Position numbers and translations under genes: made by a program
Part shown: one piece after another, positions 1,307 to 12,564 of the stretch
Layout of the letters: the number at the start of each line of letters is the position of its first letter
Numbering within the stretch: position 1 is the first letter of the stretch
The notes under the pieces: generated by a model
Databases searched by the model: none
Told to the model about the DNA's origin: nothing
Seen by the model: the letters and a program-made list of their open reading frames with translations, nothing else
NCBI GenBank assembly: GCA_947490615.1
Contig: CANLHK010000001.1
Span: 310,001-374,000, forward strand
Origin: Planctomycetaceae bacterium
GTDB taxonomy: Bacteria > Planctomycetota > Phycisphaerae > Phycisphaerales > SM1A02
Direction: 5' to 3'
DNA length: 64,000 bases

Positions 1307-2688
1307 CACCGTCGGCCCGCGAACTCAAGATGCCGAAGCAAGCGCACTGTCGCTCCAGTGATGGGCGCGAAGTCTCGTTGCTCCTGCACAAAGATATGGA
1401 CTGCTGGTCCGTCGACACGGGTGATCTCGGGGTAGGCCTTGCGGAAGAGCGCCGCGTTCTCGCGCAGCCAAGTCTGCGCGCGCTCAAGCATGCGCAGGTC
1501 GTCGATACGACAGACCAGTTGCAGCGAACCGTTCGCGTCGATCGCAAACTCGATCCGCTCGCAGCGTGGGGCCACATGATCGATGCGACCGATGCCATCG
1601 ACAAACGAGACGAGTGACTCCGGCAGCGCGCCCTCAACGAGTCGTGCTACGGCGGGAGCAACCGATGGTCCGTTGACCGCCGAGGCCACAAAGTTTGGTG
1701 CCACGGCACGCTGGACTTCCACCGCGGCCTCACGAATGGTCTTCGACGCTTGCGAGAGAACTTCACGATGCAACGCCTCGCGTCCAGCGTCATCAAGCGG
1801 AGGCATCGACGAATCGGCGCGCGCGGGTGCAGCGGACGGTGGAGTTCGAACAGGCTCCATGCCGCGTCCGCCACGCGGAGGAAGATCGGCGCGGAACGGA
1901 ATCGCGTCGGCCGAACTCAGCGGAGCCATCGACGCTGCTGCCGCAGGAGCGCGCCGCTCCGCGCGCGGTGCGAATCGGCCCGATGGTTCGAATGGCAAGC
2001 TCTCCACAATCGCGGGAGTCGCCGCGCGGGTGCCGCCGTTGGTCGCTTCGGTCAGCAACGCATCGATGCGCGCGAGGCTCGGCGCTGTTTCATGAAAGGT
2101 GCCAAGGAAGGAACTCTGCGCCGGCGCCACGCGCTGCAATCCGCCGCGCACTGGAACGGTGATCCCGAGTGCTTCGCGTGCGGCATCGCCGATGGCTTTG
2201 GCAACATGAGCTGTTCCCGCAGCGTCTGCGCCAAGCACAGCCACGGAAATCTGCGGGCGCGTGCCCGTCAAGCGCGCGCTGTCCTCGTGCGCTCCTTTGA
2301 CGAGTCGGTATGCCGCGACGATGGCCGCTTGGTCTGCTCCCGTCAGGATGACGATGTCGTCGGTGCCGTGAGGAATCTGCACGGGATCACTCTGATTTGG
2401 CACGATGAGCCATTGCGCCACGATGGGCGCGATGGCGCGCAGCACTTCGCTGCAACTTGCCTGTGCACGAATCGCCGGAAGGCGCGAACCGCCGCGAAAG
2501 AGTTCGAGATGCAACGCGTCAGGAGCCTCGCGCACAAGGCAGACGGGACCGTGGTCGCACGCGGCACGATCGGCGTACTGCGTCGTCCACAGCGCACTCA
2601 TGACAGGGAGATTTCCGACAAGAAGCAGCGTCTTGCGCGGAGAAAGCCAACCACCTGGCAATCCACCAAAGGTCGAAGCAGCGGTCAT
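1279..2688 (-). CDS. P-loop-less MinD/FlhG-like protein, partner of the ParA-CBM48 gene
   Basis: No confident family assignment. Residues about 18-185 read like a decayed MinD/FlhG-type fold. A hydrophobic strand (TLLLVGNLPVMSA) sits where the P-loop strand would be but has no GKT/S. At about 112-132 IVILTGADQAAIVAAYRLVKG resembles the 'T-pep-..dAY.l.K' strand-helix of MinD/FlhG. At about 146-185 ISVAVLGADAAGTAHVAKAI and the following ITVPVRGGL match the later 'N...l......v...G.i' part. The middle (about 220-330) is low-complexity, Pro/Ala/Arg-rich and probably disordered; a roughly 140-residue C-terminal domain is unassigned. The ATG overlaps the stop of the upstream parA-like gene by 4 bp (ATGA), so the two are co-translated. 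Likely a regulatory, non-ATPase partner of that ParA (inference). Confidence 0.6.
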   Translation of the reverse strand: MTAASTFGGLPGGWLSPRKTLLLVGNLPVMSALWTTQYADRAACDHGPVCLVREAPDALHLELFRGGSRLPAIRAQASCSEVLRAIAPIVAQWLIVPNQSDPVQIPHGTDDIVILTGADQAAIVAAYRLVKGAHEDSARLTGTRPQISVAVLGADAAGTAHVAKAIGDAAREALGITVPVRGGLQRVAPAQSSFLGTFHETAPSLARIDALLTEATNGGTRAATPAIVESLPFEPSGRFAPRAERRAPAAAASMAPLSSADAIPFRADLPPRGGRGMEPVRTPPSAAPARADSSMPPLDDAGREALHREVLSQASKTIREAAVEVQRAVAPNFVASAVNGPSVAPAVARLVEGALPESLVSFVDGIGRIDHVAPRCERIEFAIDANGSLQLVCRIDDLRMLERAQTWLRENAALFRKAYPEITRVDGPAVHIFVQEQRDFAPITGATVRLLRHLEFAGRRCYDAQTLVD

Positions 2689-4121
2689 CGGAATTGGTCC
2701 TTCACAGTCGGGCGATCGGTGACCGACTCGCGGGCACCAGGAACCACGACGATGTTCGCACCCAGACTCTCGTCTCGAAGATTGTTGAACTCGTCGAGTC
2801 CTTCGATGCCATCGACAACGATGCGATACGAATGCGTTCCTGGTGGCAACAAGAGCGTTGCCTCGAGTCGCCTTCGATCGTGGCTCTCGGTGAACGGCGT
2901 CGCCACGGGGTCCCAGCCGTTGAACTCGCCAACAAGCGTGGTGACGCGGCGCGAATAGGGCATGGTGAAGACGACGACACCACCCGCTTGCGCGCGCGGA
3001 CCAAATCCGCCACCCACGAGATTTGCCTGCCGCGTGCGCTCATTCAGCGCGCGAAGTCGGGAAGCGACATCGGCAGCGCGACCGCCACCACCCGTAGCGC
3101 TGTCGTGTTCGCGCACGGGTGCGTCCTGCACGAGCGGGTGCGAGAGCGTTGCCCGAGGAGCATGCTGCTTGGCGATGGTGATCGGTGCACCGAGCATGGC
3201 AGGCGCGCGCACTCCTTCGGTGTGAAGGGCGTCGAACCCGTTCGCACACTCAAAGCCGCGTGGCGCAGTCTCTGCTGTCTCACCACAGGCGAAGGTCTCG
3301 ATCGACGGCGGAGCGTCGACGATGAACTCTTCGAGCACGCGCGTCACTGGCGCATGACCGCGCAGCCAGAGTGCGAGTGCAGAAAAATCATCTGCCGCAG
3401 CCGACTTCGGCGCAAACTCGATGATCGACTGCCCGTAGCTCGCTGCGTCGCGCAGCTCTTCGTGCTCACGAATCGTCAGCGGCAGCAACGCCTCAGGGCA
3501 GCGACGCGCCAGCGCATCCACGACATCGCGCGAGAGCGCGCGACGGTCGTTCACCAGCGTCGGCAGCAACTTGAAGGGGATGCTGCGACCGAATCGGTTG
3601 ACGACCGCCTCGATGGTCTGGATCTGCTTCTCCGCACCCTTGAGGCTGAAGAACCCTGTTTCGACGGGAATGATGACGAGGTCTGCCGCGCGCAAGGCGT
3701 TGAAGGTCAGCATGCCGATCGTTGGCGGGCAGTCGATGATGCACCAATCGAAGCGGTCTTTCCACGCGCTGAGGACACGCGCGAGACGACGATCACGATC
3801 AAAGCGCGATGCGAGCGGACCGTTCGGCGCCTCGAAGAGCGCGAGCTGCACACTCGACGGCGCGAGGTGGAGGTTGCGACCAACTTCCCAGAGGTACTCA
3901 TCGGGCACGAGTGCTGCGGGATGTTCCGCAAGCATCGCGTCACCGATGGTCTTCTCGATGCGTTGATCGGGGACGCCAAGACCAGCAGCGCAATGCGACT
4001 GCGGATCGAGGTCCACGAGCAGCGAGCGCACGCCATCGCGCGCCATCACCGCGGCGAGATTGATCGCGGTCGTGGTCTTGCCACAGCCGCCCTTTTGGTT
4101 GACGATCGCTACAACGCGCAT
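2685..4121 (-). CDS. ParA/MinD family ATPase fused to a C-terminal CBM48-like (glycogen-binding) domain
   Basis: The first ~255 residues are a ParA-type partition ATPase: deviant Walker A KGGCGKTTT (10-18), Walker A' LLVDLDPQ (34-41), Walker B WCIIDCPPTIG (126-136) and the typical LLPTLVNDRR segment (185-194). Such ATPases dimerise on ATP, bind DNA or membrane and position cargo. Residues ~256-380 are a linker. Residues ~381-462 form an E-set/CBM48-like domain with the diagnostic LVGEFNGWDP (396-405) and LPPGTHSYRIVVDG (425-438), as in AMPK-beta and glycogen-branching enzymes. The 4-bp overlap with the downstream MinD-like gene marks a two-gene unit. There is no parB nearby, so ordinary chromosome partition is unlikely; positioning of a polysaccharide-related or other cargo is conceivable but untested. 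Confidence 0.85.
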   Translation of the reverse strand: MRVVAIVNQKGGCGKTTTAINLAAVMARDGVRSLLVDLDPQSHCAAGLGVPDQRIEKTIGDAMLAEHPAALVPDEYLWEVGRNLHLAPSSVQLALFEAPNGPLASRFDRDRRLARVLSAWKDRFDWCIIDCPPTIGMLTFNALRAADLVIIPVETGFFSLKGAEKQIQTIEAVVNRFGRSIPFKLLPTLVNDRRALSRDVVDALARRCPEALLPLTIREHEELRDAASYGQSIIEFAPKSAAADDFSALALWLRGHAPVTRVLEEFIVDAPPSIETFACGETAETAPRGFECANGFDALHTEGVRAPAMLGAPITIAKQHAPRATLSHPLVQDAPVREHDSATGGGGRAADVASRLRALNERTRQANLVGGGFGPRAQAGGVVVFTMPYSRRVTTLVGEFNGWDPVATPFTESHDRRRLEATLLLPPGTHSYRIVVDGIEGLDEFNNLRDESLGANIVVVPGARESVTDRPTVKDQFR

Positions 4122-4201
4122 CGTCGGGTTATCGGTTTGGCAGAGCGTCCGAAACGATATTTCTCGGCCGCCGCGCTGCTCGCCTTTGAGCGGAGCTCGA
4201 C

Positions 4202-5323
4202 CTAGATCGACGCGCCGATGGCCGCCAGCGCAGCGTGCACGCTCGACTGGTCCGCGCCCTGCTCGACCGACACCTCACCGATGGCCCGCGGCAGCACCAA
4301 ACGGAGCGCGCCGCCTTGGTTCTTCTTGTCAAAACCCATGCGATGCTCGATGTCTGCGGCCGAAACCCGCATCGGAAGCCGGATCGGCAAGCCCACGCGC
4401 TCCACGAGCGCCACGATCCGCTCGCCCACTTGCGGGCTGAGCAGTCCCCGTGCCTCGGCGCATCGAACGGCCGCATGCAGACCGATCGCGACTGCCTCAC
4501 CATGAAGGAGGTCGAGCCCCCGCATCGTCTCGATCGCGTGACCGAAGGTGTGGCCGAGGTTGAGTTTGGCTCGCTCGCCACGCTCGTGCGGATCGCGGGA
4601 GACGATCGCGGCCTTGACCGCCGCCGACGAGGGAATCAGTCGATCAAACGCCGCGGCGTCCCCTGCACAGAGGAGCGCGGCGTCCTTCTCGAGGTCAGCA
4701 AAGCACTGTTCACCCGCGATGACGGCGTGTTTGACGCACTCAGCAAAGCCCGCCCGCAGTTCACGAGCAGGAAGCGTCGAGAGGAGATCGGCATCCGCGA
4801 CAGTCAGGCGCGGTTGCCAGAAGGCACCCGCGAGGTTCTTCCCGAGGCCACCCCCAGGAAGCGCAAGGTTGATGCCCGTCTTGCCACCGATAGACGAGTC
4901 GACCATCGCCAGGAGCGTCGTGGGCAGTTGCACGAGATCGACGCCGCGAAGGTAGGTCGCAGCGGCAAACCCCGCGAGGTCACCCACGAGACCGCCACCA
5001 ATGGCGATGAAGAGCCCACTGCGATCCACGCGCGCCGCCAAGGCAGCATGCCAAATGGCGTCGACGGCCTCCATCGACTTCTTCGCCTCGGTCGCGTCGA
5101 CATGGATGACCGAAACATGCGCGTGCGCCGCAGCGAGCGAAGTCGCCACGCGGGCGGCAACGGCCGAGACATGTCGATCGATGACTAGGAGAATCCGCCG
5201 ATCGTTGACCTCAACGCCCGACTGCGCGAACAGCGTCGCAAGTCGCGTCGCAGCACCGCGCTCCACAACAAGACTGGTCGGACGCCCCGCGATATCGATA
5301 GGAATGGTGGTGGAGTGGCTCAA
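4202..5323 (-). CDS. aroB: 3-dehydroquinate synthase
   Basis: Second step of the shikimate pathway: DAHP to 3-dehydroquinate, NAD and divalent-metal dependent, cytoplasmic. The 373-residue length is typical. Visible signatures are the NAD-site GGGLVGDLAGFAAATYLRG, the substrate-binding DSSIGGKTGINL, the metal-ligand glutamate in GFAECVKHAVI, and the two histidines in HTFGHAIE and HGEAVAIGLH. The chosen start is TTG (5321-5323), giving MSHSTTIPIDIAG, with no better ATG close by. Its stop is 80 bp before the parA-like start, so readthrough into that pair is possible. Family assignment is secure. Confidence 0.95.
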   Translation of the reverse strand: MSHSTTIPIDIAGRPTSLVVERGAATRLATLFAQSGVEVNDRRILLVIDRHVSAVAARVATSLAAAHAHVSVIHVDATEAKKSMEAVDAIWHAALAARVDRSGLFIAIGGGLVGDLAGFAAATYLRGVDLVQLPTTLLAMVDSSIGGKTGINLALPGGGLGKNLAGAFWQPRLTVADADLLSTLPARELRAGFAECVKHAVIAGEQCFADLEKDAALLCAGDAAAFDRLIPSSAAVKAAIVSRDPHERGERAKLNLGHTFGHAIETMRGLDLLHGEAVAIGLHAAVRCAEARGLLSPQVGERIVALVERVGLPIRLPMRVSAADIEHRMGFDKKNQGGALRLVLPRAIGEVSVEQGADQSSVHAALAAIGASI

Positions 5324-5400
5324 GGTTGTTCCGAGTGAAAGGCTGCGCAGTATGCACGGACGAGGGTTGGCGCGTTGGCGGCTCGTTCGATCGGGGGAAA

Positions 5401-5440: not shown

Positions 5441-5448
5441 TGTATGAG

Positions 5449-5523
5449 TGACCCCAAGGGGATTCGAACCCCTGTTCTATCCGTGAGAGGGATATGTCCT
5501 AAACCGGGCTAGACGATGGGGCC
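5449..5523 (-). tRNA. tRNA-Glu (anticodon CUC)
   Basis: 75-nt cloverleaf read on the minus strand: acceptor GGCCCCA with TGGGGTC, T arm AGGGG-TTCGAAT-CCCCT, anticodon stem TATCC/GGATA with loop CTCTCAC giving anticodon CUC for GAG codons. Discriminator base is A and no CCA is encoded. It has its own promoter (5578-5605) and terminator (5401-5440). A second Glu isoacceptor lies 176 bp upstream with the same acceptor stem. Confidence 0.95.
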
Positions 5524-5691: not shown

Positions 5692-5699
5692 TGAGTGAG

Positions 5700-5774
5700 T
5701 GACCCCAGAGGGATTCGAACCCTCGTTACCTCCGTGAAAGGGAGGTGTCCTAGACCAGGCTAGACGATGGGGCC
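5700..5774 (-). tRNA. tRNA-Glu (anticodon UUC)
   Basis: 75-nt cloverleaf on the minus strand with acceptor GGCCCCA/TGGGGTC, anticodon stem CCTCC/GGAGG around loop CTTTCAC (anticodon UUC, reading GAA/GAG), and T arm GAGGG-TTCGAAT-CCCTC. Discriminator is A; CCA is not encoded. The acceptor and D-arm are nearly identical to the neighbouring tRNA-Glu(CUC), while the anticodon and T stems differ, consistent with an old tandem duplication. Confidence 0.95.
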
Positions 5775-5884: not shown

Positions 5885-5912
5885 ATGATAGCGGCTGCGC
5901 TGCATCTGTCGA
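5885..5912 (-). promoter_or_regulatory. Promoter of tRNA-Glu(UUC)
   Basis: Minus-strand TCGACA (5907-5912), 16-bp spacer, TATCAT (5885-5890), followed by a C-rich stretch. It predicts a ~100-nt 5' leader before the tRNA and lies in the divergent gap shared with the phosphorylase-NadD gene. Confidence 0.55.
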
Positions 5913-5944
5913 GTTGCCTTGGTTGGCGCTCGGTACCCTTTGGC

Positions 5945-7291
5945 ATGCAAGGAATCGCTCCCGCGAAGGACGAACTCCTCCAACACGCGCCGCCGAGCTT
6001 GGTGTTGTGCCCACTTCACTGCGAAAGCAGGGCATTGGCCAAGTTTGGAAAGCTTCCCGTTCTGACCATCGGGCCTGGCGCCGAGGCGATGCGCGCCGCT
6101 TTCGCAAACCGCGCACGCTGGCCTGTGCCGCAGCCGCGCCTGATCGTCCTCTGTGGACTCGCAGGTGCGCTGCACTCGGACGGTGCGCGTGGGGACGCGC
6201 GCTCCATTCGCACCGCGCTGAGCCTGACTGCCGGCGCGCCTGCGCTCACTTCGGCAGATCGTCAAGCGCATGGGAGCATCGTGGAGTCGCCCACGATCGC
6301 GTTCGCGCGCGCCGACAAGTTGCGCCTCCATGCCAGTTCGCACGCTGATCTCGTGGACAGCGAGTCCTACACCTTCGCCTCGTGTGCAGAAGCCGCGGGC
6401 ATTCCGTGGGCGATCGTCCGCGGCGTGAGCGATGACTTGACGCACGACCTTCCTCGTGAGGTCGCGGAGTTCATCGATGCGCAAGGACGCACGCGATACC
6501 TGCGCGTACTGGCGGCTGTGGCGCGTCGTCCGAAACTCGCTTTGGATTTGCTCGCACTTGGACGCATCGCAGGCAGTGCCTTGCGCAACGCAGCGTTTGC
6601 CGCCGACGCACTTGGTTGTCTTGGGGGCATCGATCTCTGCTCGCCGTCGCGGCCGCTCGTTCTGTACGGTGGTTCGTTTGATCCGCCACACATGCAGCAC
6701 GCGGTCATCCTGCGCGAGAGCGTTCGCATACTCCGCGCGCCCTGTGCGATCGTGATGCCCGCGGCGAAGAATCCCTTGAAACGCGACGCGCCCCCTGCCA
6801 CACCTGACGCGCGACTGGCACTCTGCCGCGCCAACTTCGGCAACGCTGCGCGGGACACTGGCGCGGAGGTCCGACTCTCGACACTCGAGCTGAACCGCGC
6901 GGGCGCGAGTTACACGGTGGACACCGTGATCGACCTCATCCGAGCGCATCCACACCTGCGCGGCGCGATCCGCGTGCTCATCGGAAGCGACGCGGTGCGC
7001 GATATCGAACGCTGGCGACGATGGGAAGAACTTCTCACTCTCGCAACACCCGCCATCGTGGTGCGCCCACCCGACACCCTGGCCGCAACACGGGCGTTTC
7101 TCGCCGAATTCGCGCAGCGCAGCGGGTTCTTGGACGCGCCGAACTGGGTCCTCCCCATCGATTCCATCGCGTGCGCCTCGACGACGGCACGGTCGGATCT
7201 TGCACAGGGCGCGCGACCGGATGGGCTCGCGGACGCAGTGTTCGATGAAATCACAGCGCGACGGCTCTACGGCTTCGGCGACCAACGCTGA
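5945..7291 (+). CDS. nadD: Nucleoside phosphorylase/hydrolase domain fused to nicotinate-nucleotide adenylyltransferase
   Basis: Two enzymes in one chain (448 residues from ATG 5945). The N-terminal ~215 residues resemble the purine nucleoside phosphorylase/MTA-SAH nucleosidase superfamily: LCGLAGAL near 70 and DSESYTFASCAEAAGIPW (138-155) followed by IVRGVSDD, the counterpart of the family's 'ME..a...a...ip...iRgiSD'. The segment RRPKLALDLLALGRI is reminiscent of hopanoid-associated phosphorylases. The C-terminal ~210 residues are NadD (nicotinate mononucleotide to deamido-NAD): LYGGSFDPPHMQH (240-252) for the nucleotidyltransferase HxxH site and ASTTARSDL near 411 for the late S/TTxxR motif. 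ATG 5945 is preferred over an upstream ATG at 5885 because TACCCT (5934-5939) ends 5 nt before it. The fused first domain could act on a nucleotide or NAD-salvage product (inference). Confidence 0.8.
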   Translation: MQGIAPAKDELLQHAPPSLVLCPLHCESRALAKFGKLPVLTIGPGAEAMRAAFANRARWPVPQPRLIVLCGLAGALHSDGARGDARSIRTALSLTAGAPALTSADRQAHGSIVESPTIAFARADKLRLHASSHADLVDSESYTFASCAEAAGIPWAIVRGVSDDLTHDLPREVAEFIDAQGRTRYLRVLAAVARRPKLALDLLALGRIAGSALRNAAFAADALGCLGGIDLCSPSRPLVLYGGSFDPPHMQHAVILRESVRILRAPCAIVMPAAKNPLKRDAPPATPDARLALCRANFGNAARDTGAEVRLSTLELNRAGASYTVDTVIDLIRAHPHLRGAIRVLIGSDAVRDIERWRRWEELLTLATPAIVVRPPDTLAATRAFLAEFAQRSGFLDAPNWVLPIDSIACASTTARSDLAQGARPDGLADAVFDEITARRLYGFGDQR

Positions 7292-7312
7292 TGGCTCTAC
7301 ACTGTCCGATCT

Positions 7313-8863
7313 ATGACTTCTCGTCCCGCAGGAACATCCGTCGCGCGCGTCAGCTTCGTCAGCCTCGGCTGCCCGAAGAACCTCGTCGACAGCGAGAAGA
7401 TGCTTGGTGTCCTCGCGCAGTCGGGATTCGAACTCGTCAATGAAGACCAGCGGCCCGACGCGATCGTCGTGAACACCTGCGGCTTCCTCGAGGCCTCGAA
7501 GGACGAATCACTCGAAGTCATCCGCGACGCGATCCGCCGCAAAGAGAAGGGCGAGATCAAGCGCGTGGTGGTCGCGGGATGTCTCGTGCAGCGTCACCGC
7601 GCCAAGCTCCTCGAGTGGGCGCCTGGCATCGACGCGATGGTCGGCGTGTTCGACCGCGACCACATCGTCGACGCGGTTGCAGGTGAGAAGGCCAGCGACC
7701 TCGCGGAAAAAGCGCCGAAGTACTGGATCGCCAGTAACGCACTGCAAGCCGCCAACGAACGCGGTGTGAAGACTGTTGGACTCACCGTCAATGGCGCCGA
7801 CGGCAAAGGCATCGGCTACTTCGAAGGCGATGAGAACCGCATTCGCCTCACTCCGCGGCACTGGGCGTATCTGCGCATCAGCGAAGGCTGCAATCAACGC
7901 TGCGCGTTCTGCACCATTCCTTCGATTCGCGGCAAGATGCGCTCGAAGCCGCTGGCAGCCATCGAGAGCGAAGCCCGCAGCCTCATGGCCTCGGGCGCGT
8001 TCGAATTGAACCTCATCGGTCAGGACACCACGAGCTACGGCCTTGATGTCGGCTACGACGGCGGACTCCCTGGACTGCTCAAGACGGTGAACGGTGTCGC
8101 TCGCGAGTTCAACGGCGGTTGGGTGCGGCTGATGTACGCGTATCCATCGAAGTTCGACGACGCCTCGATCGACGCCATCGCCTCGCTCGACAACATCCTG
8201 AAGTACATCGACATGCCACTGCAGCATGCGAGTAACAGCATGCTCAAGGCGATGCGCCGACACACGACGCGCGCCGACACCGAGCTCTTGCTCGAGAAGC
8301 TGCGCGACCGCGTTCCGGGCATCGCCATCCGAACCACCTTCATCGTGGGCTTCCCTGGCGAGACCGAGGAAGACTTCGAAGAACTCTGCGAGTTCATCAG
8401 CGAGCAACAGTTCGACATGCTCGGCGTCTTCCGTTACTCCGCCGAGGCAGGAACGCCCGCAGGCACGATGGAACAGGACCCTGCGCTGGCAGTGCCCGAT
8501 GCGGTGAAGCGCGAGCGTGAAGAGCGCATCATGCTCCTGCAGCAGGAAATCGCCTTCGAAAACGCGCAACTGCAGTCGCAGTCCAAGGCGCAGTTCGATG
8601 TGCTGATCGAGGGCGTTGCCGCGGGCAAGTCGAAGTCGCGCGCGACCACAGGCGTCACCAAGGGCGGCGCGCTCTACACGGGTCGCGCGTACTTTCAAGC
8701 GCCGTCGATCGACTCGCTGACCTATGTGCAGTCGACGGAGAAGCGCTCGCCCGGCGAACTGGTCCGCTGCACCGTCGTCGATGCCAACGGCTACGACCTC
8801 GTCGCGGTGCCGACCGACGAACTCGAGAAGCGCGTCTCGCTTCCCATCATGCACCGCCACTAG
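7313..8863 (+). CDS. rimO: Ribosomal protein S12 methylthiotransferase RimO
   Basis: Radical SAM enzyme adding a methylthio group to the conserved aspartate of ribosomal protein S12. The N-terminal UPF0004 domain has RimO-specific LGCPKNLVDSE (19-29) and cluster cysteines C20, C56 and C90. The radical SAM site is EGCNQRCAFCTIP with C193, C197 and C200, and a TRAM-like C-terminal domain follows. The GCPKNLVDSE sequence separates it from MiaB. At 516 residues it is longer than Escherichia coli RimO, partly by an insertion at about 125-175. It follows the phosphorylase-NadD gene by 21 bp but has its own TACACT (7298-7303) 9 nt before ATG. Confidence 0.95.
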   Translation: MTSRPAGTSVARVSFVSLGCPKNLVDSEKMLGVLAQSGFELVNEDQRPDAIVVNTCGFLEASKDESLEVIRDAIRRKEKGEIKRVVVAGCLVQRHRAKLLEWAPGIDAMVGVFDRDHIVDAVAGEKASDLAEKAPKYWIASNALQAANERGVKTVGLTVNGADGKGIGYFEGDENRIRLTPRHWAYLRISEGCNQRCAFCTIPSIRGKMRSKPLAAIESEARSLMASGAFELNLIGQDTTSYGLDVGYDGGLPGLLKTVNGVAREFNGGWVRLMYAYPSKFDDASIDAIASLDNILKYIDMPLQHASNSMLKAMRRHTTRADTELLLEKLRDRVPGIAIRTTFIVGFPGETEEDFEELCEFISEQQFDMLGVFRYSAEAGTPAGTMEQDPALAVPDAVKREREERIMLLQQEIAFENAQLQSQSKAQFDVLIEGVAAGKSKSRATTGVTKGGALYTGRAYFQAPSIDSLTYVQSTEKRSPGELVRCTVVDANGYDLVAVPTDELEKRVSLPIMHRH

Positions 8864-12551: not shown

Positions 12552-12564
12552 CCCGTCAGTGTAC

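Follow-up and report, generated by a model that had tools for sequence, protein, structure and literature searches.

The open reading frame at positions 5945–7291 (+) encodes an uninterrupted 448 amino acid protein in which a phosphorylase domain of the MTA/SAH nucleosidase fold precedes the NaMN adenylyltransferase NadD. It is found in a window of 64,000 nt, i.e. the whole stretch of DNA analyzed, from a Planctomycetaceae bacterium. Each of the two enzyme families is known, and it is their arrangement as domains of one protein that is new; a literature search for a fusion of HpnG or a nucleoside phosphorylase with NadD found nothing on the arrangement, most subscription journals being outside of the search. 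The protein is best read as two independent enzymes, an HpnG-type phosphorylase and NadD, that were joined on one polypeptide by operon compaction. The probability of this reading is put at roughly 0.78.

The frame is open without internal stops from position 5885 to 7291 (+). An in-frame upstream ATG at 5885 would give a chain length of 468 aa, however the start at 5945 is favored because MQG is also found at that position in the relatives L002 and L003. The Pfam domains PNP_UDP_1 (E-value = 8.7e-10) and CTP_transf_like (E-value = 1e-9) are both above their cut-offs in the single protein. The unbroken fusion frame is present in all ten genomes sampled from the genus, the window's genome counted, thus a sequencing error is very unlikely as the source of the fusion. 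The initial annotation had described a phosphorylase/nucleosidase-type domain ahead of a complete NadD, and this stands: one frame carries both profiles and both predicted folds. That annotation also named a missed stop codon or frameshift between the domains as a possible flaw; this is excluded as far as ten genomes show, since neither the window nor any of the nine others shows a break in the frame.

The two domains meet at a short joint (positions 6617–6655 (+), model residues 225–237) that connects the HpnG-like domain, at its C-terminal helix, to the first NadD strand. An internal start that would yield a separate NadD was rejected as a general rule, as three of 27 fusions have no in-frame ATG, GTG or TTG in the 45 codons ahead of the NadD motif. 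The window fusion shows only three TTG codons in this span, none with a purine-rich leader as judged by a crude pattern. In fusions that have such codons NadD may be made from an internal start. In g18, a genus closely related to the window's, dN/dS is ~0.06–0.15 in the HpnG part, 0.04–0.24 in the joint and 0.08–0.20 in NadD, and these low values indicate that all three are constrained as protein. Values of dS often exceed 1 within the genus of the window itself; the sequences are too divergent and the ratios there are rough.

The NadD domain is at positions 6635–7279 (+) (model residues 231–445) and displays the NadD signature GGSFDPPHMQH at positions 6668–6700 (+). In a search of the whole protein against NCBIfam, NadD (TIGR00482) is the top match (E-value = 1.3e-24) and is located in the C-terminal part. 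The score of about 87–90 bits (87.3–89.9) is below the curated cut-off of 112.45, which three fused relatives pass (132–134.6), and the gathering score of the PF01467 CTP_transf_like model is exceeded (39.1 vs. 21). With the exception of one cytochrome P450 (E-value = 0.0026), all matches of the C-terminal part to PDB sequences at E-values up to 1 are NadD proteins. This is the sole NadD found in the genome, which is 96.9% complete; the next match has 16.5 bits.

The HpnG-like domain (PNP_UDP_1, MTAN fold) is at positions 5987–6625 (+), model residues 15–227. The N-terminal part searched alone against NCBIfam gives the hopanoid phosphorylase HpnG (TIGR03468) as the top match (E-value = 3.4e-22), followed by the next nucleoside phosphorylase/nucleosidase model at 1.6e-14. 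By these scores the domain is closest to HpnG, rather than to a general nucleoside phosphorylase. The window protein scores 79 bits, and neither it nor any of the 151 family genomes reaches the curated HpnG cut-off of 187.1 bits; it is for this reason termed HpnG-like and not a formal member of TIGR03468. Against PDB sequences the N-terminal part matches MTA/SAH nucleosidases at E-values of 0.12–0.67, and a profile made from 24 of the HpnG-like domains matches at E-values down to 5.7e-13. The other two strong PNP-fold proteins of the genome are better matched by AMP nucleosidase, or by the MTAN/futalosine families, than by HpnG; the one at C5:201605 fits MTAN/futalosine better.

Characteristic residues are highly conserved across 52 domains. 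Glu27 (positions 6023–6025 (+)) is kept in all of them and is the putative counterpart of MTAN Glu12. Glu140 (6362–6364 (+)) is part of the VDxES sequence that aligns with VEMEG of MTAN, presumably at the site of MTAN Glu174, and is also kept in 52 of 52. Asp163 (6431–6433 (+)), kept in 51, belongs to RGVSDD, which aligns with RSISDN of MTAN; we assume that this is the site of MTAN Asp197, the adenine N7 acid. A conserved glycine is lost in two domains, those of G053 and G065, and the G053 domain is also without the Asp.

An AlphaFold2 model of the fusion was made from a 30-row alignment (mean pLDDT 88.6, pTM 0.73). The N-terminal domain is predicted to have the fold of MTA/SAH nucleosidases (PDB 3bl6, Z 17.5, 2.6 Å over 173 residues) and the C-terminal domain that of NadD (PDB 3e27, Z 24.6, 1.7 Å over 187 residues). 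In a Foldseek search, 50 of 50 among the matches listed are NadD-type enzymes, as are the top rows of the Z-scored comparison.

Separate adjacent genes for the two domains, which the initial annotation suggested looking for, are found in many relatives. Among 110 placed family genomes, 41 are fused, 44 have adjacent genes in the order hpnG-nadD and 25 have the two apart. The fused class consists of 27 genomes verified as one frame with both profiles and 14 that rest on a match to the fusion query. The adjacent class has 36 genomes with both genes on the same strand and eight with a single frame that contains a stop. In the class with genes apart, one genome has them ~100 kb from each other and 24 have them on different contigs, where fragmented MAGs may hide linkage. 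Outside of the 110, from a total of 151, are 20 genomes without a listed NadD row, 18 without HpnG, two cut by contig ends, and G004, which was excluded as its stretch L140 contains no NadD. In L019, from the genus g17, the end of hpnG and the start of nadD overlap at ATGA. The proposal that an unrelated enzyme had been fused through operon compaction thus gains support from the adjacent genes and from this overlap.

The common layout in relatives is parA-aroB divergent from hpnG-nadD-rimO-lepA. In the window, a rimO-type gene (UPF0004, radical SAM, TRAM) at positions 7313–8863 (+) begins 21 bases downstream of the fusion, and aroB at 4202–5323 (−) is divergent from it; rimO is a frequent neighbor of nadD in relatives and aroB of hpnG. 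Seven genomes with the pair apart were fetched. Four of these (L177/L178, L179/L180, L183/L184 and L190/L191) have hpnG beside aroB and nadD beside rimO. In G031 only nadD keeps its old neighbors, and in G032 and G015 neither half does. Two genomes of the genus g6 have nadD with no hpnG between it and aroB, at a distance of 0.3 kb in L141 and 1.6 kb in L143; nadD standing alone beside aroB suggests that NadD works without hpnG.

Other features of this region were also observed. Two tRNA-Glu genes with anticodons CTC and TTC lie between aroB and the fusion at positions 5448–5523 and 5699–5774 (−). A ParA-like ATPase (AAA_31, E-value = 1.3e-43) is encoded at positions 2685–4121 (−), and its C-terminus carries an AMPK glycogen-binding domain. 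The model for the latter, PF16561 AMPK1_CBM, has a cut-off of 26.8 bits; it gives 26.9 bits when the C-terminal piece is searched by itself and 23.6, below the cut-off, on the whole protein. The ParA-like protein has weak matches to AMPK beta in the PDB, at E-values from 0.003 upward. A ParA-type neighbor recurs in relatives; the combination with a glycogen-binding domain is, to our knowledge, unusual for such an ATPase. The hexamer TACACT has three copies in the 64 kb, and two precede the ATG of a long frame: one at 7298 (+), nine bases before rimO, and one at 12563 (−), six bases before a 245-codon frame. CTACACT is also found ahead of rimO in several relatives. The hexamer might serve as a −10 box for leaderless transcripts, a weak suggestion as permuted hexamers score equal or higher.

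The survey of the class comprised 120 genomes, 16 of them from other families of the same order and 101 from other orders. In the other families of the order, among the matches listed, G245 is fused, G255 and G267 have adjacent genes, and G203 and G222 show one match read across stops. The pair is apart in G173 (~7 kb), G210 (~66 kb), G216 (~19 kb) and G189 (other contig), and the remaining genomes have one part or none, among the matches listed. No match spanning both domains was found in the 101 genomes of other orders, among the matches listed. All 28 of these with both parts among the matches listed have them apart (27 on different contigs and G198 at ~3 Mb), and the weakest HpnG-like rows in this set may be different nucleosidases. 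The initial annotation would have counted unlinked domains in relatives against the fusion. Relatives with the pair apart do exist, i.e. 25 of 110 placed family genomes and 28 of 28 in other orders among the matches listed; they limit the age of the linkage and do not undo the fusion.

Trees were made from 57 NadD and 52 HpnG domains selected from the family. The HpnG tree has few supported branches, and its bootstrap did not reach convergence; G004 is wrongly labeled as adjacent in this tree, which leaves the count for the fused state unaffected. On the NadD tree the fused state changes seven times and on the HpnG tree six times; supported branches force at least four and at least three of these changes, respectively. 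As judged from these trees, several fusion or fission events would be needed, with their direction unsettled. A single origin of the fusion is disfavored by the forced label changes, a count that includes fissions. Genus g17 groups with the window's genus in both trees. A genome scan with the single protein as query found no relative; a scan with an alignment found Phycisphaerae/Phycisphaerales MAGs having the fusion or the gene pair. The best row of the alignment scan, L056 (JASGCF010000247.1), is titled Limnohabitans, a betaproteobacterium, and contains the 3′ part of the fusion (55% identity) cut by a contig end. It is probably a mislabeled or contaminated MAG.

The window's genome encodes HpnH (504 bits) and squalene-hopene cyclase (SHC, 570 bits), both above cut-off. 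The SHC frame contains DCDDTA, which we take to be the cyclase motif. A hopanoid cluster, the usual although not obligatory setting of hpnG, is absent around the fusion: hpnH is ~254 kb away and shc is on another contig. Co-occurrence in the family was scored with thresholds of our own choosing, i.e. at least 53 bits for the HpnG-like domain, at least 100 bits for SHC, and for HpnH a score above cut-off, with the addition of eight fragments that each score above 50 bits. Fisher values for these counts take no account of shared descent and are given no weight here. In 151 family genomes, the domain and HpnH are both present in 106, the domain only in 15, HpnH only in five and neither in 25; the corresponding numbers for SHC are 111, 10, eight and 22. 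When only the 102 genomes that are at least 90% complete are considered, 83 have the domain together with HpnH or SHC, two have the domain alone, two have HpnH or SHC alone and 15 have none. One of the two with HpnH or SHC alone, G054, has the fusion cut by a contig end. The presence of the HpnG-like domain thus tracks HpnH and SHC across the family.

The fusion query still matches in all 15 of the near-complete genomes without the domain, HpnH and SHC, and in 12 the match is in the NadD range, among the matches listed. Similarly, in the genera g19 and g23 none of 14 genomes has the domain, HpnH or SHC above the thresholds; the fusion query matches all 14, in the NadD range in 10, among the matches listed. 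On the NadD tree the state without HpnG changes five times, and supported branches force four or more of these changes; the joint absence of HpnG and hopanoid genes is thus not one event.

There are exceptions. In the 85 HpnG-positive genomes that are at least 90% complete, HpnH was not detected in 10, which include three of the four sampled from the sister genus g17, and SHC was not detected in four. Both were undetected in G100 (fused, 94% complete) and G122 (92%). G053 is one of the three g17 genomes without HpnH, and its loss of the Asp and Gly would fit decay following the loss of HpnH; the other two keep the conserved residues. In G048 (genus g6, 88% complete) an intact-looking fusion with conserved residues kept is present in L142 at positions 4029–5333 (−), and neither HpnH nor SHC was found.

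The initial annotation had also raised a role in NAD metabolism, where the phosphorylase domain recycles a nucleoside, e.g. by phosphorolysis of nicotinate or nicotinamide riboside that feeds NadD. Such a role would fit the joining to NadD in one chain and the 44 further genomes in which the genes are adjacent. However the domain disappears together with HpnH and SHC in the 15 near-complete genomes described above while the fusion-query match stays, its top profile is HpnG, and the pair is apart throughout the other orders, among the matches listed. The VDxES and SD motifs moreover have aligned counterparts in MTA/SAH nucleosidases, whose substrates are adenine nucleosides. A role in NAD metabolism is therefore disfavored and is considered very improbable. 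The N-terminal domain might instead be a futalosine hydrolase or MTA/SAH nucleosidase, given the shared fold, the aligned motifs and weak matches to those models. Their profiles nevertheless score far below HpnG, and C5:201605 of the same genome suits that function better. MqnC, used as the partner for MqnB (TIGR03664), has matches (E-value ≤ 1e-40) in none of the ten genomes of this genus and in all ten of g19, which is without the domain, although no genome of the 151 is above the curated MqnC cut-off. This assignment too is considered very improbable.

It is also conceivable, although unlikely, that the fusion links the synthesis of hopanoid side chains to NAD/ATP status by regulation or channeling and has been selected repeatedly. 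Removal of adenine from adenosylhopane would be tied to NaMN adenylation, and bacteriohopanepolyol production would thereby follow NAD status; such an adaptive origin is similarly doubtful. The next step, reduction of ribosylhopane, would draw on NAD(P)H. Recurrence of the fused state on both trees, the fused genome G245 in another family and purifying selection on the joint in g18 are consistent with coupling. On the other hand, genes that lie so close together can readily fuse more than once without any benefit, the change counts include fissions, and the genes are split or separate in many relatives. We know of no metabolite common to the two reactions, which also counts against coupling.

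HpnG is described as a putative phosphorylase that removes adenine to give ribosylhopane (PMC12583986). In the favored reading of two independent enzymes, HpnH would make adenosylhopane from diploptene, and the N-terminal domain, as the HpnG type of this genome, would cleave off adenine and leave the ribosyl chain that leads to bacteriohopanepolyol. The C-terminal domain would, as in its family, adenylate nicotinate mononucleotide to deamido-NAD. We infer these substrates, as well as the autonomy of the enzymes and the lack of coupling. An ancestor within the order may have had parA-aroB divergent from hpnG-nadD-rimO-lepA; the stop codon between hpnG and nadD would then have been lost in several lineages, or fusion and fission may have alternated. 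Most likely, the two enzymes gain joint expression from being fused, and their chemistry stays separate.

The fusion partner of NadD thus most likely belongs to lipid metabolism and not NAD metabolism, and for that reason this is a case where a “Rosetta stone” fusion link would mislead function prediction. The protein suggests that planctomycetes have a divergent form of HpnG, whose step is still only putative, here in a genome without a hopanoid cluster; as one naturally occurring chain it lends itself to testing that step.

Compared with known systems, the C-terminal domain shares the whole domain, the signature and the fold (Z 24.6 to PDB 3e27) with NadD proteins (TIGR00482; PDB 3e27, 4wso). 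It differs in its score below the curated value, in the added N-terminal domain, and in HMQH, which replaces the canonical NadD form HxGH. The N-terminal domain resembles MTA/SAH nucleosidases (PDB 3bl6, 3nm4) in its motif pattern and in its fold (Z 17.5 over 173 residues), however the nucleosidase NCBIfam models score far under HpnG. Unlike HpnG of TIGR03468, it has 79 rather than 187.1 bits, is outside of any hpn cluster and is joined to NadD. HpnG is nevertheless its top family, and the two have in common the PNP/MTAN-type fold, the conserved residues and the company of HpnH and SHC in most genomes.
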